Assembly: GCF_025311495.1 (NCBI RefSeq) | Contig: NZ_CP104398.1 | Location: 1,488,001 to 1,552,000, forward strand | DNA length: 64,000 nucleotides | Source: Limosilactobacillus oris | Lineage (GTDB): Bacteria > Bacillota > Bacilli > Lactobacillales > Lactobacillaceae | Direction: 5' to 3' | In this document: in pieces, positions 51,885 to 63,478 of the stretch | Layout: every line of letters begins with the position of its first letter | Numbering within the stretch: position 1 is the stretch's first letter | Position numbers and translations under genes: made by a program | The notes under the pieces: generated by a model | Database searches by the model: none | Told to the model about the DNA's origin: nothing | What the model saw: only the letters and a program-made list of their open reading frames with translations

Positions 51885-54800
51885 ATGAATAAGGAATTCC
51901 AAACGTTACGCAAGAAGCAACGGTTTGGCTTAAGAAAGCTGAATATCGGGGTGGCTTCCGTTCTGTTAGGATTTACGATTTTTGGTTATAATCTGGCCAG
52001 TCAAGCGCCGGTTGCCCACGCGGCCACAAGCACAGTTGCGACTAGCGCTGGCTCGGGCTCGTCTGGTTCGTCAGCGACTGGGGTAGCAAATGGATCGCAG
52101 GCCAGCAACAGTCAGGCCACCAGTGCGACCAGCTCTGCTGCGACCGCCAGTCAAACGACCTCGGCGACCCAAGTAACGGCGCCTGCGGCCAGTCAGAGCT
52201 CAGCGCCGGCGAACTCGGACAATGCGTCCTCCTCAACGGCCAACCAAGCGGGGACGGTATCGGCTAACCAGACTTCAAACACCAGTACGGCTGGTGCACC
52301 GGCTTCAAGTGATCAAACCGTGACGGTGGATGAAACTACGCTTCCAGCGCCCCAAGCGGCAATGCTGTTGACTAATTTGGCTGTCGTAACGAATAGTGGG
52401 ACTGACACGACGTTGCCAACAACGACGCAGACGTATGACAAAGTGGAACAACCGTTGCTATACGATTACCTGCTCCACACTGCGACGGGAACCAGGGATG
52501 GCAAGACATGGGTCGATAAGACGGTGGCCAAGGGGGTCTGGAATTATCCTCGTTATACGCTGGATACGATTTTTGGAACAACTTCAAAGCCGGGGATCAT
52601 TACCAGCCATCCCGACAAGTATTTCTTTGCGGCGTACGTTGATTATAGTGAACAATATCACCGGGTAATCCTGTTAGCGCGGGGCCAAGATCCAAGTGAT
52701 AAAAATCTGTACAGCTACACGATTCACACTTATTCGCAAAACAATTCCACGACGACGACTAAGCCCGGGGAAAGCATCAAAGAGCAATATACTGGGACCG
52801 GTGGCAGTACCCATGATTTAATTTTCCACAACTATGGTGACTCCTTCTCAGTTAAGTTAAGTGGCCGCCTTACAGACGGCTATGGGCTGTTACCGGTCTT
52901 TGATGAAGGCTTATTGGACCCTACGTACGGCTCTAATACTTTAGATCAAAATGATAAGGCGGCCCAAACGGAGTCAATCGCTTTCTGGGCAAGTGCGATC
53001 CCACAGAAAACTTCGACCAAGGTTAGATACGTGGACCAAGCAACTGGAAAAGACATTGTTCAACCAATGGAAATTAGTGGCTTTGGTTATCAAGGCTTCA
53101 AAGTTAAGGGTGATGCTCCAACGGTTACGGGGTATCATTTGGTATCCTCACCTGAGTTCCTGCCCTCAACTAATAAAGCCTCAGCTTATGAAGACGGTAC
53201 GATTTCGCCATATAAAGTTGGGCAAACTTATGATTTAGCTTTGTCGGATAGTGTCGTAATTAAGCAAACGGTGATTGATACCAATGGGACCGTGCGGGCG
53301 ACTGCGTACTATAATGGGAGTCGTCTACCATCGACGGATGCCAGCAAGGTCTTGGGGCGTGAGAGCTACAACGATAAGATGAGTTTTGGTGCCCCGGATG
53401 GTAAATTCTATACTTACACCAACCGAATTGGTCAGGTCGATGGCAGCTATATTTACTACTACGCCAAGGACAGCGATCCCGACGGCAGCGAAATGCGGCT
53501 GCACTTCATTGATGTGACGGGCGTTAACAACAGTTCCTACGCACCGTCCGATGGGCCAGAACTTGATGTTGATAAAGTTCAGACCATTCATGGCAACATT
53601 GGGAAAAATTACAACTTTACCTACACGGTGCCAAAAGGTTATGACCAAGTTGCTACCAGTGACGTCACGGGGACGTACTCAAAGACGCACCACGATGCTT
53701 ATGTTTATGTAAAGGCAAACACGCCAAAGCCTGTTACGACCCCTGTCAAGACGAATGAAAACACGCCTTTGACGGATGGCCAAGCGAAGGACGCGATTGC
53801 CAACAACTCTGAGTTGCCAGATGGCACAACGTACACGTGGAGTAAGCAGCCAGACACAACGCAGCCCGGCGACAAAACTGGTGAAGTAACGGTTCATTAC
53901 CCAGATGGTAGTTCTGAAACAGTTACGGTGCCGGTTTACGTCAACAGCGCAGCAGATAACAACACGCCAACGGCGGTTAAGGACCCGGTCAAGACGAATG
54001 AAAACACGCCTTTGACGGATGGCCAAGCGAAGGACGCGATTGCCAACAACTCTGAGTTGCCAGATGGCACAACGTACACGTGGAGTAAGCAGCCAGACAC
54101 AACGCAGCCCGGCGACAAAACTGGTGAAGTAACGGTTCATTACCCAGATGGTAGTTCTGAAACAGTTACGGTGCCGGTTTACGTCAACAGCGCAGCAGAT
54201 AACAACACGCCAACGGCGGTTAAGGACCCGGTCAAGACGAATGAAAACACGCCTTTGACGGATGGCCAAGCGAAGGACGCGATTGCCAACAACTCTGAGT
54301 TGCCAGATGGCACAACGTACACGTGGAGTAAGCAGCCAGACACAACGCAGCCCGGCGACAAAACTGGTGAAGTAACGGTTCATTACCCAGATGGTAGTTC
54401 TGAAACAGTTACGGTGCCGGTTTACGTCAACAGCGCAGCAGATAACAACACGCCAACGGCGGTTAAGGACCCGGTCAAGACGAATGAAAACACGCCTTTG
54501 ACGGATGGCCAAGCGAAGGACGCGATTGCCAACAACTCTGAGTTGCCAGATGGCACAACGTACACGTGGAGTAAGCAGCCAGACACAACGCAGCCCGGCG
54601 ACAAAACTGGTGAAGTAACGGTTCATTACCCAGATGGTAGTTCTGAAACAGTTACGGTGCCGGTTTACGTCAACAGCGCAGCAGATAACAACACGCCAAC
54701 GGCGGTTAAGGACCCGGTCAAGACGAATGAAAACACGCCTTTGACGGATGGCCAAGCGAAGGACGCGATTGCCAACAACTCTGAGTTGCCAGATGGCACA

Positions 54801-57800
54801 ACGTACACGTGGAGTAAGCAGCCAGACACAACGCAGCCCGGCGACAAAACTGGTGAAGTAACGGTTCATTACCCAGATGGTAGTTCTGAAACAGTTACGG
54901 TGCCGGTTTACGTCAACAGCGCAGCAGATAACAACACGCCAACGGCGGTTAAGGACCCGGTCAAGACGAATGAAAACACGCCTTTGACGGATGGCCAAGC
55001 GAAGGACGCGATTGCCAACAACTCTGAGTTGCCAGATGGCACAACGTACACGTGGAGTAAGCAGCCAGACACAACGCAGCCCGGCGACAAAACTGGTGAA
55101 GTAACGGTTCATTACCCAGATGGTAGTTCTGAAACAGTTACGGTGCCGGTTTACGTCAACAGCGCAGCAGATAACAACACGCCAACGGCGGTTAAGGACC
55201 CGGTCAAGACGAATGAAAACACGCCTTTGACGGATGGCCAAGCGAAGGACGCGATTGCCAACAACTCTGAGTTGCCAGATGGCACAACGTACACGTGGAG
55301 TAAGCAGCCAGACACAACGCAGCCCGGCGACAAAACTGGTGAAGTAACGGTTCATTACCCAGATGGTAGTTCTGAAACAGTTACGGTGCCGGTTTACGTC
55401 AACAGCGCAGCAGATAACAACACGCCAACGGCGGTTAAGGACCCGGTCAAGACGAATGAAAACACGCCTTTGACGGATGGCCAAGCGAAGGACGCGATTG
55501 CCAACAACTCTGAGTTGCCAGATGGCACAACGTACACGTGGAGTAAGCAGCCAGACACAACGCAGCCCGGCGACAAAACTGGTGAAGTAACGGTTCATTA
55601 CCCAGATGGTAGTTCTGAAACAGTTACGGTGCCGGTTTACGTCAACAGCGCAGCAGATAACAACACGCCAACGGCGGTTAAGGACCCGGTCAAGACGAAT
55701 GAAAACACGCCTTTGACGGATGGCCAAGCGAAGGACGCGATTGCCAACAACTCTGAGTTGCCAGATGGCACAACGTACACGTGGAGTAAGCAGCCAGACA
55801 CAACGCAGCCCGGCGACAAAACTGGTGAAGTAACGGTTCATTACCCAGATGGTAGTTCTGAAACAGTTACGGTGCCGGTTTACGTCAACAGCGCAGCAGA
55901 TAACAACACGCCAACGGCGGTTAAGGACCCGGTCAAGACGAATGAAAACACGCCTTTGACGGATGGCCAAGCGAAGGACGCGATTGCCAACAACTCTGAG
56001 TTGCCAGATGGCACAACGTACACGTGGAGTAAGCAGCCAGACACAACGCAGCCCGGCGACAAAACTGGTGAAGTAACGGTTCATTACCCAGATGGTAGTT
56101 CTGAAACAGTTACGGTGCCGGTTTACGTCAACAGCGCAGCAGATAACAACACGCCAACGGCGGTTAAGGACCCGGTCAAGACGAATGAAAACACGCCTTT
56201 GACGGATGGCCAAGCGAAGGACGCGATTGCCAACAACTCTGAGTTGCCAGATGGCACAACGTACACGTGGAGTAAGCAGCCAGACACAACGCAGCCCGGC
56301 GACAAAACTGGTGAAGTAACGGTTCATTACCCAGATGGTAGTTCTGAAACAGTTACGGTGCCGGTTTACGTCAACAGCGCAGCAGATAACAACACGCCAA
56401 CGGCGGTTAAGGACCCGGTCAAGACGAATGAAAACACGCCTTTGACGGATGGCCAAGCGAAGGACGCGATTGCCAACAACTCTGAGTTGCCAGATGGCAC
56501 AACGTACACGTGGAGTAAGCAGCCAGACACAACGCAGCCCGGCGACAAAACTGGTGAAGTAACGGTTCATTACCCAGATGGTAGTTCTGAAACAGTTACG
56601 GTGCCGGTTTACGTCAACAGCGCAGCAGATAACAACACGCCAACGGCGGTTAAGGACCCGGTCAAGACGAATGAAAACACGCCTTTGACGGATGGCCAAG
56701 CGAAGGACGCGATTGCCAACAACTCTGAGTTGCCAGATGGCACAACGTACACGTGGAGTAAGCAGCCAGACACAACGCAGCCCGGCGACAAAACTGGTGA
56801 AGTAACGGTTCATTACCCAGATGGTAGTTCTGAAACAGTTACGGTGCCGGTTTACGTCAACAGCGCAGCAGATAACAACACGCCAACGGCGGTTAAGGAC
56901 CCGGTCAAGACGAATGAAAACACGCCTTTGACGGATGGCCAAGCGAAGGACGCGATTGCCAACAACTCTGAGTTGCCAGATGGCACAACGTACACGTGGA
57001 GTAAGCAGCCAGACACAACGCAGCCCGGCGACAAAACTGGTGAAGTAACGGTTCATTACCCAGATGGTAGTTCTGAAACAGTTACGGTGCCGGTTTACGT
57101 CAACAGCGCAGCAGATAACAACACGCCAACGGCGGTTAAGGACCCGGTCAAGACGAATGAAAACACGCCTTTGACGGATGGCCAAGCGAAGGACGCGATT
57201 GCCAACAACTCTGAGTTGCCAGATGGCACAACGTACACGTGGAGTAAGCAGCCAGACACAACGCAGCCCGGCGACAAAACTGGTGAAGTAACGGTTCATT
57301 ACCCAGATGGTAGTTCTGAAACAGTTACGGTGCCGGTTTACGTCAACAGCGCAGCAGATAACAACACGCCAACGGCGGTTAAGGACCCGGTCAAGACGAA
57401 TGAAAACACGCCTTTGACGGATGGCCAAGCGAAGGACGCGATTGCCAACAACTCTGAGTTGCCAGATGGCACAACGTACACGTGGAGTAAGCAGCCAGAC
57501 ACAACGCAGCCCGGCGACAAAACTGGTGAAGTAACGGTTCATTACCCAGATGGTAGTTCTGAAACAGTTACGGTGCCGGTTTACGTCAACAGCGCAGCAG
57601 ATAACAACACGCCAACGGTTGATCAAAACGCGGAAGTTGATCCAAACAGCGTAGTCACCAACCAAGACACTTTGCCAAAGGGGACAAAGTATAGTTGGAC
57701 GACGAAGCCTAACACTGATAAGGTTGGGCAACCAGCAAAGTCACAAGCCAAGACGCTGCCACAAACCGGGAATGAACAAGGTTCCCTGTTAGCCGCTAGT

Positions 57801-57863
57801 GGCTTGGGCATGTTGTTGCTCGGGCTTCTCGGGCTTGGCGGTAAGCGCAAGAAGGAAGATTAA
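51885..57863 (+). CDS. Large LPQTG-anchored surface adhesin with Rib-like repeats
   Basis: 1,992 residues. YSIRK-like signal (RFGLRKLNIGVASVLLGFTIFG, shortened: core GLRKLNIGVASVLLG), cleavage near AHAA. Residues 48-150 are Ser/Thr/Ala-rich; 170-370 an unidentified globular domain; about 380-430 a MucBP-like unit (TKVRYVDQATGKDI). From residue 621 about 16 Rib/alpha-like repeats of 81 residues run to 1,911. The C-terminus has KTLPQTGNEQG, a hydrophobic span and KRKKED, so sortase A links it to the wall. ATG 51,885 after AAAAGGAAGGGG. Probably mediates adhesion. Confidence 0.93.
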   Translation: MNKEFQTLRKKQRFGLRKLNIGVASVLLGFTIFGYNLASQAPVAHAATSTVATSAGSGSSGSSATGVANGSQASNSQATSATSSAATASQTTSATQVTAPAASQSSAPANSDNASSSTANQAGTVSANQTSNTSTAGAPASSDQTVTVDETTLPAPQAAMLLTNLAVVTNSGTDTTLPTTTQTYDKVEQPLLYDYLLHTATGTRDGKTWVDKTVAKGVWNYPRYTLDTIFGTTSKPGIITSHPDKYFFAAYVDYSEQYHRVILLARGQDPSDKNLYSYTIHTYSQNNSTTTTKPGESIKEQYTGTGGSTHDLIFHNYGDSFSVKLSGRLTDGYGLLPVFDEGLLDPTYGSNTLDQNDKAAQTESIAFWASAIPQKTSTKVRYVDQATGKDIVQPMEISGFGYQGFKVKGDAPTVTGYHLVSSPEFLPSTNKASAYEDGTISPYKVGQTYDLALSDSVVIKQTVIDTNGTVRATAYYNGSRLPSTDASKVLGRESYNDKMSFGAPDGKFYTYTNRIGQVDGSYIYYYAKDSDPDGSEMRLHFIDVTGVNNSSYAPSDGPELDVDKVQTIHGNIGKNYNFTYTVPKGYDQVATSDVTGTYSKTHHDAYVYVKANTPKPVTTPVKTNENTPLTDGQAKDAIANNSELPDGTTYTWSKQPDTTQPGDKTGEVTVHYPDGSSETVTVPVYVNSAADNNTPTAVKDPVKTNENTPLTDGQAKDAIANNSELPDGTTYTWSKQPDTTQPGDKTGEVTVHYPDGSSETVTVPVYVNSAADNNTPTAVKDPVKTNENTPLTDGQAKDAIANNSELPDGTTYTWSKQPDTTQPGDKTGEVTVHYPDGSSETVTVPVYVNSAADNNTPTAVKDPVKTNENTPLTDGQAKDAIANNSELPDGTTYTWSKQPDTTQPGDKTGEVTVHYPDGSSETVTVPVYVNSAADNNTPTAVKDPVKTNENTPLTDGQAKDAIANNSELPDGTTYTWSKQPDTTQPGDKTGEVTVHYPDGSSETVTVPVYVNSAADNNTPTAVKDPVKTNENTPLTDGQAKDAIANNSELPDGTTYTWSKQPDTTQPGDKTGEVTVHYPDGSSETVTVPVYVNSAADNNTPTAVKDPVKTNENTPLTDGQAKDAIANNSELPDGTTYTWSKQPDTTQPGDKTGEVTVHYPDGSSETVTVPVYVNSAADNNTPTAVKDPVKTNENTPLTDGQAKDAIANNSELPDGTTYTWSKQPDTTQPGDKTGEVTVHYPDGSSETVTVPVYVNSAADNNTPTAVKDPVKTNENTPLTDGQAKDAIANNSELPDGTTYTWSKQPDTTQPGDKTGEVTVHYPDGSSETVTVPVYVNSAADNNTPTAVKDPVKTNENTPLTDGQAKDAIANNSELPDGTTYTWSKQPDTTQPGDKTGEVTVHYPDGSSETVTVPVYVNSAADNNTPTAVKDPVKTNENTPLTDGQAKDAIANNSELPDGTTYTWSKQPDTTQPGDKTGEVTVHYPDGSSETVTVPVYVNSAADNNTPTAVKDPVKTNENTPLTDGQAKDAIANNSELPDGTTYTWSKQPDTTQPGDKTGEVTVHYPDGSSETVTVPVYVNSAADNNTPTAVKDPVKTNENTPLTDGQAKDAIANNSELPDGTTYTWSKQPDTTQPGDKTGEVTVHYPDGSSETVTVPVYVNSAADNNTPTAVKDPVKTNENTPLTDGQAKDAIANNSELPDGTTYTWSKQPDTTQPGDKTGEVTVHYPDGSSETVTVPVYVNSAADNNTPTAVKDPVKTNENTPLTDGQAKDAIANNSELPDGTTYTWSKQPDTTQPGDKTGEVTVHYPDGSSETVTVPVYVNSAADNNTPTAVKDPVKTNENTPLTDGQAKDAIANNSELPDGTTYTWSKQPDTTQPGDKTGEVTVHYPDGSSETVTVPVYVNSAADNNTPTVDQNAEVDPNSVVTNQDTLPKGTKYSWTTKPNTDKVGQPAKSQAKTLPQTGNEQGSLLAASGLGMLLLGLLGLGGKRKKED
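53745..57632 (+). repeat. About 16 tandem 243-bp repeats, apparently identical
   Basis: Units start GTCAAGACGAATGAAAACAC, 243 bp apart from 53,745. Fifteen complete copies read the same at every base I compared, and the sixteenth differs only in its last 14 or so bases (from 57,619). The identity at synonymous positions means recent homogenisation. It also creates a 1,350-codon open frame on the other strand, which is not a gene. Confidence 0.95.
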
Positions 57864-58530: not shown

Positions 58531-59586
58531 GGCAGATTGCAAGAAATAACTTGAACGAATTTAATGACGTAAATTAAGCAGGAAGATCTCGATTAGTGTG
58601 CGCCAGTTAAGACATTTAAGTGGCCGGGAATTCAGATACCAATTAATTTGAACCAGCTGGCGATTGCTCAGCTCTTCAATAGCTTGGCCTTTGGGAATAA
58701 AGCGCCGTAAAACTCGGTTACGGTTCTCATTACTACCGCGTTCATGTGGTGAATAAGCATGGGCAAAATAAACCGGAGTACCAGTTAGCTGCTCAATTGC
58801 CTGGTAGTTAGCGAACTCTTTACCATGATCTACGGTCAGCGTCTTGAGTTTGTCTTGAAGTTGACTAGCTAGTTCAAGCACGGCTTGAGTCATGGATTGA
58901 CTATCGCGACCATGGAGCCGTTTAACAATTGTCAGGCGACTCTTACGCTCCACAAAAGTAGCCACAGCTTGACCTTTACGCTTGCCAGAAAGTACGGTAT
59001 CAGCTTCAAAGTGGCCGAATTCCTGGCGAGTTTCGACTTTATGAGGACGCTCCTCAATTGAGCGGCCGTGACTGAACGTACCATGCTTTTCTTTAGCGCG
59101 ATGGCGACGAATTCCATGATCAGGCAAATCAGATAACTGCACATCAAGCCATTTTTGATCAATCCAGTTATAAACCGTCTTGTAGGCAATCCCAACCACA
59201 TGGGCAACTTGTTCAGGAGACCACTTCTGGACTTGAATCTTTTCCTCGACCAAGTGTTTAAGGTTTTTAGTGAGCGAAGACTTCCGCCCCCGTTGACTAA
59301 CCTTTTGTTCAAAGTCAGTTTGCGCTAGCTCAGCCTGATACTCACCATTTAGTCGGTGAAGTTTATTAAAGATCGTGGTCTTACTAAAGCCTAAGTAGTT
59401 AGCGATATATCGCAAGGAACGTCCTTCATTATGAAGCGTTTCAATGACAACGCGGTGCTGGAATGATAAAATAGTGGTGCCCATCAAGTTCCTTCTTTGC
59501 TAATGGAATGTTGAGGTAACACCATTAAAGACCTTGATGGGTTTTTCTGACCACTTAAATGTTCAACTTAAATTTTACAATCTGCC
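58531..59586 (-). mobile_element. Intact IS30-family insertion sequence
   Basis: Imperfect inverted repeats GGCAGATTGCAAG..TTGAAC (58,531) and the complement of 59,586 GGCAGATTGTAAA..TTGAAC. 1,056 bp with one full transposase gene. Different subgroup from the copy at 11 kb. No target duplication recognised. Confidence 0.85.
58561..59484 (-). CDS. IS30 transposase
   Basis: 307 residues. N-terminal helix-turn-helix (RSLRYIANYLGFSKTTIFNKL), then DDE core: FGHFEADTVLSGKRKG, TVDHGKEFANY and HERGSNENRNRVLRRF. ATG 59,484 after GAAGGAAC. Complete and probably functional. Confidence 0.95.
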   Translation of the reverse strand: MGTTILSFQHRVVIETLHNEGRSLRYIANYLGFSKTTIFNKLHRLNGEYQAELAQTDFEQKVSQRGRKSSLTKNLKHLVEEKIQVQKWSPEQVAHVVGIAYKTVYNWIDQKWLDVQLSDLPDHGIRRHRAKEKHGTFSHGRSIEERPHKVETRQEFGHFEADTVLSGKRKGQAVATFVERKSRLTIVKRLHGRDSQSMTQAVLELASQLQDKLKTLTVDHGKEFANYQAIEQLTGTPVYFAHAYSPHERGSNENRNRVLRRFIPKGQAIEELSNRQLVQINWYLNSRPLKCLNWRTLIEIFLLNLRH

Positions 59587-60689: not shown

Positions 60690-61721
60690 TTACAGGCTGA
60701 GCTTGAGATCAGCGGGCTGGATGAAGGAAGAGTGTTTGACAAAAATCAGGTTCATCAGCCAGGCACTGACCACCGGAACAACGACGAAGGCGAGGGTAAC
60801 GCGTAGTAAGAGGAGGTCGCCCGCCGAATGCTGGTAAGCCGTGAGCGGGCCGATTAATCCTGCAAAACCGAAGCCAGCGGAAAAGGGCGTCCCGGTCATT
60901 CGAAGGAGCGCCGCGGCTAAACCCGCGACACCGGAAGCGATGATGACCGGAACGAATAGTCGTGGCCGCTCCAATATATTAGCCATTTGAATTTTAGGCG
61001 AACCAAAAAAGTGGGCCAGGGTTCCGCCGAGCGGGTTAACGGTGGCCCCCATCCAAGCGAGCGTGAAGGAGCAGGCGACAATCCCGGCATTCGCGGCCCC
61101 GGAACCAATTCCCGAGAGCGAAATCGCCATGGCAATCGCAACGGAAGAAATCGGCGAGACAATTAGGACGCCAAAAATCATTCCAAGGACGACTCCTATA
61201 AGCAGTGGGGACATCGTCGTTGCCGCCTGAACAACCTGGCCGATGGCAGTTTGAATTGCGACCATCACCGGCTTGGTAAACAGGCTAAGGCCACCAGCGA
61301 TTAAGAGGACCAGCAGTGATTCTAAGATAATCTTGAATTGACCGAGGAAACGGTCGAGGAGGATTACCAGGATTGAGGCGGTAAAGGTGGTAAGCATGAT
61401 GTTAAGGATGATTCCCGAACCATTAAGCAGGAAGACGGCTTTTTGCGGGCTAGCATTCCCGGCAGCCACAAAAGTTGCCAGCGCCATTGAACCGACCTGC
61501 AAAGTTGAAAGCCGCAAGATCATGCCGACCGCGAAGGCTGCAATGAAGGGGAAGGCGGTTTGGGCAAGGGTAATCATATAGGAGATACTGGTCGTTACCG
61601 GGTTGATGGGGCAAAAGTGGAGCAGCTGGGACAGCAGAGCACTGGGGATTAACGCGATTACGATGGCACTGGCGTTACCGTTGAGCGTGGCCATCGCTAA
61701 TTCTTTGAGTTTGACTTTCAT
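60690..61721 (-). CDS. PfoR-like PTS EIIC-type membrane transporter
   Basis: 343 residues with about nine or ten hydrophobic segments and glycine-rich loops (VVLGMIFGVLIVSPISSVAIA, ISLSGIGSGAANAGI). This is the EIIC-like PfoR family (PF13303 type as I recall), lacking EIIA/EIIB domains. The substrate is unknown. GGAGAAG precedes the ATG. It sits behind a leader-peptide attenuator with Phe and Trp codons, which hints at a link with aromatic amino acids; this is inference. Confidence 0.75.
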   Translation of the reverse strand: MKVKLKELAMATLNGNASAIVIALIPSALLSQLLHFCPINPVTTSISYMITLAQTAFPFIAAFAVGMILRLSTLQVGSMALATFVAAGNASPQKAVFLLNGSGIILNIMLTTFTASILVILLDRFLGQFKIILESLLVLLIAGGLSLFTKPVMVAIQTAIGQVVQAATTMSPLLIGVVLGMIFGVLIVSPISSVAIAMAISLSGIGSGAANAGIVACSFTLAWMGATVNPLGGTLAHFFGSPKIQMANILERPRLFVPVIIASGVAGLAAALLRMTGTPFSAGFGFAGLIGPLTAYQHSAGDLLLLRVTLAFVVVPVVSAWLMNLIFVKHSSFIQPADLKLSL

Positions 61722-61823
61722 GTTACGATCTTCTCCTTAGCTTTGTTAATGTTAGGGGAGCGAGGGACATTATTTCATCCAGGGTCGGGTCATGGTTCTG
61801 GCAATCCTCCTTTAAAAACAAAA

Positions 61824-62012
61824 CCGGGTGTTGCAGCATTCTACAACACCCGGAAGTCCTGGTTTTCTTAATGGTTGGCTACCAAATCAAGCTGGACCAG
61901 CTTCCGGATGTCTTCCTCCTAGAAGCGGTCACAAAAAGCCCTGGCTCTAGGAATGGGAATTCCAGAACCAGAAAAAGACGTTGTTTGCTTTTACCGTTGC
62001 TAACGTTGTCAT
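61824..62012 (-). promoter_or_regulatory. Leader-peptide transcription attenuator upstream of the EIIC-like gene
   Basis: Terminator: CCGGGTGTTG/CAACACCCGG (61,824-61,853) followed on the minus strand by TTTTGTTTTT. Competing antiterminator: CCGGAAG (complement of 61,901-61,907) with CTTCCGG (complement of 61,850-61,856), which uses the CCGG of the terminator's 5' arm. A third stem (CTGG..CCAG) covers the Phe/Trp codons of the leader peptide. This is classical ribosome-stalling attenuation architecture. Confidence 0.65.
61947..62012 (-). CDS. Leader peptide with FFWFW run
   Basis: 21 codons; ATG 62,012 with GGAG 8 nt upstream, ending VFFWFWNSHS then TAG. Five consecutive aromatic codons (Phe-Phe-Trp-Phe-Trp) in a 21-codon peptide next to competing hairpins make a regulatory leader likely. 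Confidence 0.6.
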   Translation of the reverse strand: MTTLATVKANNVFFWFWNSHS

Positions 62013-62043
62013 TTTACAAGCTCCATTCAATTTGATTATATGC

Positions 62044-62071
62044 ATTATAATATAATCCTAATCAATGTCAA
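62044..62071 (-). promoter_or_regulatory. Promoter of the attenuator leader
   Basis: On the minus strand TTGACA (complement of 62,066-62,071), 16-bp spacer and TATAAT (complement of 62,044-62,049), about 30 bp before the leader peptide start. Confidence 0.75.
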
Positions 62072-62445: not shown

Positions 62446-62643
62446 TTCTTTTCCTATGGGACTGCCCAATCCGCTGGTCAACTCGCTGGGGCACAACTGC
62501 CGGGCCAAGGCAACATTGCCAATCGGAAAGCAACATTGCCACAAACTGGTAATGATACTAATCGTCTGGCGATTGCGGGCCTAGCCGCTGCTAGCCTGCT
62601 GGGACTATTTGGTCTTGGCAAGCGTGACCGGAAGAAAAACTAA
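62446..62643 (+). pseudogene. C-terminal remnant of an LPQTG surface protein
   Basis: 65 residues end in KATLPQTGNDTNRLAI, a hydrophobic stretch (AGLAAASLLGLFGLG) and KRDRKKN, a full sorting signal, but a TAG (62,443-62,445) precedes it and no start or secretion signal exists. Third sortase-substrate sequence in the window. Confidence 0.7.
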
Positions 62644-62824: not shown

Positions 62825-63478
62825 ATGATCAAAGTTGGAATAATTGGTGCTTCGGGCATGGCCGGGCGCACGATTTACAAACTGGCGGCGGCAACACAGG
62901 ACCTGAACCCGATCGGAATTGTTCGCCATGAGAAGAAGGCGAAGGAGGTCCTGGGGGATGACGTCTAGCTCCTCAGCGGCAACATTTTCGCGATGACGGA
63001 TAGCCTCCTGTCACGGTTTGACGTAATTGTCGATGCTTTCGGAACCAATCCGGCAGACGCGGACCGGCACCTCAGGCTGGCCGAAAAGCTGGTTAATTTG
63101 GCCCGCAAAAATAAGATTCGGCTAATCTTCATCTTGGGTGCGGGGAGCCTGCAAACTGGGGAGGACGAGTACCTCTTCGTGGATGACCTTGAAAAAATAC
63201 CGGCTTCCTCCAGCTGGATCAATACGCCGCGCCAGCAGTTAAAGGAGCTCCAGTACCTAGAAACAATCACGGATGTCGACTGGGTCGGAATTTCGCCAGC
63301 GGCAACGTTTGAGCCGGGGCCGGCGGCCAGCTATCAACTTGGTAAGGATACATTACTCTACAATGGTCAGGGTGAATCGAAGGTAACCACCGGGACGATG
63401 GCGGAGGTAATCGTGAAGGAAATCCTCGTGCCGCAGTTCCACCAGGAGCGGTTTACCGTGGTTAACACGGGCAAGTAA
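62825..63478 (+). pseudogene. NAD(P)-binding (SDR a5-like) protein with in-frame TAG
   Basis: ATG 62,825 after AAGGAG. GIIGASGMAGRTIYKLA is the Rossmann GxxGxxG motif; after 47 codons a TAG (62,966-62,968) interrupts, then LLSGNIFAMTDSLLSRFDVIVDAFGTN continues in frame to 63,478 (sequence shortened where needed), with GAGSLQTGED and DWVGISPAATFEPG typical of NAD(P)H-binding/NmrA-like proteins. The full length (217 codons) is normal, so a single nonsense mutation inactivates it. Restart at 62,993 would lack the cofactor motif. Confidence 0.85.

Follow-up and report, generated by a model that had tools for sequence, protein, structure and literature searches.

The window analysed here, a stretch of 64,000 nucleotides of the Limosilactobacillus oris genome, carries on its minus strand, in this order, a promoter, a Shine-Dalgarno (SD) sequence, a short leader open reading frame (ORF), a five-segment RNA relay, an intrinsic terminator and the gene of an EIIC_2 membrane protein. 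The promoter is of the sigma-70 type (TTGACA-N16-TATAAT, 62044..62071) and matches the consensus at 12 of 12 positions, which bears out its description as strong in the initial annotation of this DNA. The SD sequence GGAG (62021..62024), with an ATG 8 nt downstream, serves the leader ORF (61947..62012), which encodes the peptide MTTLATVKANNVFFWFWNSHS in 21 codons followed by TAG; start, SD and stop are thus all present upstream of the regulated gene. Codons 13-17 (61962..61976, TTT TTC TGG TTC TGG), the putative sensor, specify Phe-Phe-Trp-Phe-Trp, and the five consecutive Phe/Trp codons reported for this peptide were indeed found. The intrinsic terminator, located between the leader ORF and the EIIC_2 gene (61814..61853), consists of the hairpin CCGGGTGTTGTAG-AATG-CTGCAACACCCGG, with 13 pairs of which 8 are GC, and the U tract TTTTGTTTTT. 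The competing antiterminator (CCGGAAG/CTTCCGG) and terminator stems that had been noted are both present on the minus strand, and the predicted fold of the leader RNA is better than those of 200 out of 200 dinucleotide shuffles (z = -3.69).

The regulated gene (60690..61721, minus strand) encodes a membrane protein of 343 aa that matches the PTS_EIIC_2 profile (PF13303, E=1.8e-78) with 264.4 bits, against a gathering cut-off of 28.9; its closest named relatives are those of L. coleohominis and others, with 77-82% identity. A PDB sequence search with the transporter gave no match. Most of a structure model (pLDDT 79, pTM 0.71) can be matched to the EIIC sugar transporters PtsG, MalT and ChbC, with Z values of about 12-17, and the transporter is predicted on this basis to have an EIIC (glucose-superfamily) fold; together, profile and model uphold the earlier view of the gene product as EIIC-like. 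Despite this predicted likeness in fold, the window protein differs from MalT, PtsG and ChbC in that it shares only about 10-13% identity with them and is linked to amino-acid enzymes. It also differs from PTS EIIC transporters in that no EIIA or EIIB was found either among the upstream neighbours that were clustered or in the 343-aa protein itself, a search whose scope excludes genes located downstream or elsewhere in the genome. No description of the function of EIIC_2/PfoR proteins was found in the open-access literature.

Beyond the two stems mentioned above, two more helices link the relay to the ribosome. Segment 1 (CTGGTTCTGGAAT, 61959..61971; all segments are on the minus strand) can pair with segment 2 (ATTCCTAGAGCCAGG, 61940..61954), and would be masked by a ribosome stalled at the aromatic codons. 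Segment 2 overlaps the stop codon of the leader ORF; its partner would be segment 1 or, upon a stall, segment 3, and a ribosome at the stop codon would mask it. Segment 3 (GACCGCTTCTAGG, 61918..61930) would pair with segment 2 on the antitermination path or with segment 4 on the termination path, and segment 4 (CCGGAAGCTGGTC, 61895..61907) either with segment 3 as protector or with segment 5 as antiterminator. Segment 5 (ACCAGGACTTCCGG, 61850..61863) forms the 3' arm of the antiterminator, in which CCGGAAG (61907-61901) pairs with CTTCCGG (61856-61850), and its CCGG is shared with the base of the 5' arm of the terminator. Hence, helices 1:2 and 3:4 correspond to termination, and helices 2:3 and 4:5 to antitermination. 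All the helices are retained in close relatives, one of which (L032) has a compensatory change, from U-A to C-G, in helix 2:3.

We examined how this relay would depend on the position of the ribosome by folding transcripts ended just before the 3' arm of the terminator, with 27 nt masked for each ribosome position. Antiterminator strength was taken as the free energy tying up the 5' arm of the terminator while the A site was moved codon by codon. Pairing probability, our first switch metric, was saturated, and ensemble free-energy differences with shuffled-spacer controls were used instead. For 65 different leaders, the mean strength was 4.7-5.2 kcal/mol at nearly all positions ahead of the run, reached 7.7-8.8 kcal/mol on the aromatic codons and was 4.8 kcal/mol at the stop codon; it climbs again past the stop codon, where the ribosome would be absent. 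The difference between the stalled and the stop position was 3.57 kcal/mol, versus 0.13 kcal/mol with a dinucleotide-shuffled spacer, and it exceeded 1 kcal/mol in 69% of the leaders, versus 19% after shuffling. It should be noted that the 65 leaders share ancestry, and hence are not 65 independent trials, and that these are equilibrium energies obtained with a fixed 27-nt mask that leave out kinetics. In the case of the window leader, the strength rises from about 10.5-12 to 16-19.7 kcal/mol with the A site on the FFWFW run, and is predicted to be still high, 12.5 kcal/mol, with the ribosome at the stop codon. Because of this latter value, and because the overlap between antiterminator and terminator is limited to about four bases (roughly CCGG), the window switch may be leaky, with some constitutive read-through. 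Since the antiterminator strengthens only with the ribosome on the aromatic codons, the predicted polarity is that a stall turns the operon ON. We are therefore highly confident that the element is a ribosome-stalling transcription attenuator of this polarity, although this view is derived in silico and there are no expression data.

The initial annotation had named the absence of the aromatic codons from homologous leaders as an outcome that would refute a ribosome-stalling switch. This test, set beforehand, turned out favourably. We sampled 100 transporter loci from 96 Lactobacillaceae genomes and scanned them for short upstream ORFs with at least four aromatic residues in seven; a convincing aromatic-run leader lies ahead of the transcription unit of the transporter in 80 of the 96 genomes and in 18 of the 21 genera, with runs such as YYFWFF, FYFWYF and FFWFW. 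In most relatives the leader is located at the start of the operon, not at the transporter itself. The presence of an equivalent aromatic-run ORF at homologous units in 18 genera indicates that the leader is not due to chance, and the conserved run, together with the rise of the antiterminator only there, gives strong in silico support to the switch that had been proposed. The leader peptides are highly varied (MKNNSNIQMNSCRYYFWFFRV, MTVKHIENAEQFYFWYFR and MNSQMINQTSFYFYFAWYDNVSK are examples), and the run is always in their C-terminal half. In the six-residue cores of 71 peptides, Phe, Tyr and Trp account for 393 of the 426 residues; Trp shifts position within the run and is absent from 18 of the 71, Phe and Tyr interchange, the run can be interrupted by S, A, T, N, K or R, and the N-terminal residues are not conserved. 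A terminator was detected after 70 of 77 leaders, roughly 90-200 nt 3' of the stop codon. Terminator sequences are unrelated between genera and the flanking peptide diverges, while the aromatic run is kept; judged from these sequences, it is the architecture that is conserved, not the RNA sequence. In genus g30 (L124, L128, L132), the spacer between leader ORF and terminator is longer, 180 nt or more, and has extra hairpins; a relay of the simple form is a poorer description of these leaders. The scan used detected no leader in 16 of the 96 transporter-bearing genomes, and rescanning leaderless loci (for instance, transporter copies after leuS or a YczE-like gene; L037/L035) under looser rules found none either. 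Most relatives of the transporter outside the Lactobacillaceae have neither leader nor partners, clear leaders being limited to L208 and L225.

In relatives, the typical unit comprises genes for an aminotransferase (about 400 aa), a D-2-hydroxyacid dehydrogenase (about 330 aa) and EIIC_2, or for the aminotransferase and EIIC_2 only. The aminotransferase belongs to class I/II; among its best PDB matches is the aromatic aminotransferase 1dju, and its closest NCBIfam entry is PRK07309, with a score under the cut-off of that family. The dehydrogenase is D-LDH/HicDH-like. The window genome contains this enzyme pair about 155 kb from the window transporter, with 64% and 73% identity, respectively, to the genes of the relatives. 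A second aromatic leader, MKSAMQQVNHAYYFWFSSLIR, and a terminator lie ahead of the pair (about 1285-1550 of the reverse complement of L196; near 1394000, outside the window), and in the ribosome-position analysis its antiterminator rises from 2.2-2.9 to 3.9-4.8 kcal/mol exactly on YYFWF. Scanning the genome with the pattern TWYTWYTGGTWY, which leaders without Trp would escape, returned only the two units described; the other ORFs matching TWYTWYTGGTWY had no convincing terminator or SD. As the comparison with relatives shows, the ancestral operon is split in this genome, each half having its own predicted aromatic attenuator. A 7-codon ORF, MTRPWMK followed by a stop codon, is preceded by AGGAGG 3' of the window terminator (61770..61793, minus strand), at the site where the aminotransferase starts in operons of the L. 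coleohominis type. This position suggests an internal deletion, and we infer that the ORF is probably a remnant of the start of an aminotransferase gene that has itself been deleted. The partner enzymes and the split operon lend support to the earlier suggestion that the protein handles an aromatic compound, although its exact substrate is unproven.

The aspC motif (RF04313) is a strong riboswitch candidate, SRC-45-1, found upstream of aminotransferase genes, with over 1000 mostly environmental representatives (PMC11109978). Its authors point out that it has few conserved nucleotides, and their main text reports no ORF (PMC11109978). Among the loci that we searched, matches to RF04313 were limited to genus g29. 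In this genus, which we assume is probably Oenococcus, the motif occupies the leader position ahead of the aminotransferase, with two members above the gathering score and three below. The g29 loci encode MTGIQTQSNKNYYWFTRIPA, MADQMSQMHSYYYWFTR and similar leader peptides, and the motif overlaps the aromatic leader ORF (L110, 1198-1322; L116, 3224-3101; also L109 and L112): its 5' end falls inside an ORF reading ...N-K-N-x-Y-W-F-T-R... (e.g. ...NYYWFTR), whose start codon is outside the motif. Moving the ribosome along this ORF in L116 gave a peak on the YYWF codons, from 3.5-4 to 12.6-16.3 kcal/mol. We conclude, from these computed results, that aspC is an aromatic leader-peptide attenuator, at least in the g29 genomes; the environmental members are not covered. 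Like the leaders described above, the aspC motif contains a terminator, overlaps an aromatic ORF, has a predicted dependence on the ribosome and belongs to an aminotransferase-EIIC_2 unit, where it precedes the aminotransferase. It differs in being classed as an orphan riboswitch candidate and in its primary sequence, which is unlike that of the window leader; the latter gave no match to the RF04313 covariance model. No follow-up study of aspC was found in the open-access literature. This link, the wide distribution of the leader family and its inclusion of Tyr codons go beyond the initial annotation.

The trp, pheA, ilv, leu and his attenuators of Proteobacteria contain a leader peptide whose coding sequence includes codons for the amino acids concerned. 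The system described here resembles them in its translated leader with such codons, its mutually exclusive helices, its terminator and its predicted antitermination upon a stall. On the other hand, a single run here pools Phe, Tyr and Trp codons, the relay has five segments instead of the four of the trp type, the host belongs to the Lactobacillales, and the target is a transaminase-dehydrogenase-EIIC_2 unit and not a biosynthetic pathway. Leader-peptide attenuation is also known in Firmicutes, namely the His leader of hisS/hisZ in bacilli (PMC2965389) and the Leu-rich attenuator of S. aureus ilv (PMC5794164); these share the principle but concern other amino acids, genes and lineages. We found neither an aromatic leader in Firmicutes nor any earlier description of the present one in the open-access literature searched.

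The window leader would sense Phe and Trp, while the family as a whole would pool the charging of Phe, Tyr and Trp tRNAs. When the aromatic tRNAs are charged, the ribosome would reach the stop codon and mask segment 2, upon which segments 3 and 4 would pair, the terminator would form and transcription would stop short of the transporter gene. A shortage of any one of these charged tRNAs would instead halt the ribosome on the run, where it would mask segment 1 but not segment 2, which lies immediately ahead; pairing of segments 2 and 3 would then release segment 4, and helix 4:5 would destroy the base of the terminator, allowing the transporter gene to be transcribed. As to physiology, none of three marker enzymes (prephenate dehydratase, prephenate dehydrogenase and PRAI) was found in the window genome, while all three were present in 14 of 14 control genomes, and the strain is predicted to be a triple auxotroph for Phe, Tyr and Trp. 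From the lack of these marker enzymes we infer uptake and salvage induced by starvation: EIIC_2 would import aromatic 2-oxo or 2-hydroxy acids (or the amino acids themselves), the dehydrogenase would oxidise the imported hydroxy acid, and transamination would regenerate the amino acid. The equilibrium of such dehydrogenases lies on the side of reduction, a point against the oxidation step. That the transporter carries an aromatic amino acid or its oxo or hydroxy analogue is a probable inference; whether the direction is that of salvage, that is, uptake, we consider evenly balanced.

The direction is indeed the point at which another function must be weighed, namely that EIIC_2 exports the aryl-lactates (phenyllactate, hydroxyphenyllactate and indolelactate) formed by the aminotransferase and the dehydrogenase, the leader merely tuning overflow. 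The three-gene operon would be identical to that expected for salvage, and lactic acid bacteria (LAB) make indolelactate via ArAT and an adjacent D-2-hydroxyacid dehydrogenase (PMC10040830). However, an operon turned ON by a stall would trigger the loss of aromatics during starvation in a predicted triple auxotroph; induction when aromatics are scarce makes uptake and conversion more sensible than export, which we regard as unlikely without ruling it out. The same enzymes, being a known LAB route to aryl-lactates (PMC10040830), might suggest catabolism instead, under an inducible arrest peptide similar to TnaC, in which an excess of free aromatic amino acid stalls the ribosome via the nascent peptide and turns the operon ON. 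A contact with the exit tunnel is conceivable for an aromatic-rich peptide, but once the stop codon has reached the A site, the predicted antiterminator is at its baseline of 4.8 kcal/mol, so that arrest there would not antiterminate, and the variable N-terminus, the mobile or absent Trp, the exchanges between Phe and Tyr and the interrupted run point to codon content rather than to a fixed peptide motif. We therefore deem such an arrest peptide improbable.

Readings in which the RNA itself recognises its ligand fare worse. The listing of RF04313 as a strong candidate upstream of an aminotransferase (PMC11109978) speaks for a metabolite-binding riboswitch, as proposed for aspC; yet the aspC consensus starts within the aromatic ORF, the ribosome-position analysis peaks on the YYWF codons, the conserved nucleotides are few according to the aspC authors (PMC11109978), and the window leader has no Rfam match at all, which makes a riboswitch very hard to sustain. 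A T-box or other tRNA-binding leader would be the usual device in Firmicutes, as is generally known (PMC2965389), but no T-box match was obtained for the window leader (E up to 5), nor for 32 related loci at the gathering threshold; a known RNA family at this position was rejected, and we give a tRNA-binding leader practically no credence. A stalling attenuator that responds jointly to how well the Phe, Tyr and Trp tRNAs are charged, with starvation-induced salvage as its inferred role, is in our view, and with good confidence, the best explanation overall. A more far-reaching proposal remains tentative, and we would put it somewhat below an even chance: that the Lactobacillales possess a leader family pooling Phe/Tyr/Trp tRNA charging and a previously unrecognised salvage route, in which a phosphotransferase-independent importer with an EIIC fold takes up aromatic 2-oxo and 2-hydroxy acids that are re-aminated in auxotrophs, aspC being one branch of this family.

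These predictions offer a testable function for the EIIC_2 transporters, a family that has a PTS-like fold and has not been characterised. They link it to the metabolism of aromatic amino acids, from which lactobacilli of food and gut form phenyllactate and indolelactate. They also imply that leader-peptide attenuation of the classical kind is common in these bacteria, although the group has been assumed to depend on T-boxes. The reassignment of aspC, an orphan riboswitch candidate with over 1000 representatives, would spare a fruitless ligand hunt.

Several features flank the region. Directly upstream of the leader promoter lies an orphan fragment, apparently a gene remnant, that encodes only the C-terminal end of a surface protein with an LPQTG anchor (KATLPQTGNDTNRLAIAGLAAASLLGLFGLGKRDRKKN, followed by a stop codon; about 62530-62643, plus strand), and a dehydrogenase/epimerase-like gene (62825-63478, plus strand) has an in-frame TAG near 62966 and is a probable pseudogene. 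Near the downstream side of the region, there is an IS30-family transposase gene (58561-59487, minus strand), which is possibly tied to the rearrangement of the operon. A cell-wall protein of 1992 aa (51885-57863, plus strand) has an LPQTG anchor and numerous tandem repeats that are almost identical to one another (PVKTNENTPLTDGQ...); the 1350-codon open frame on the antisense strand of its gene is spurious.
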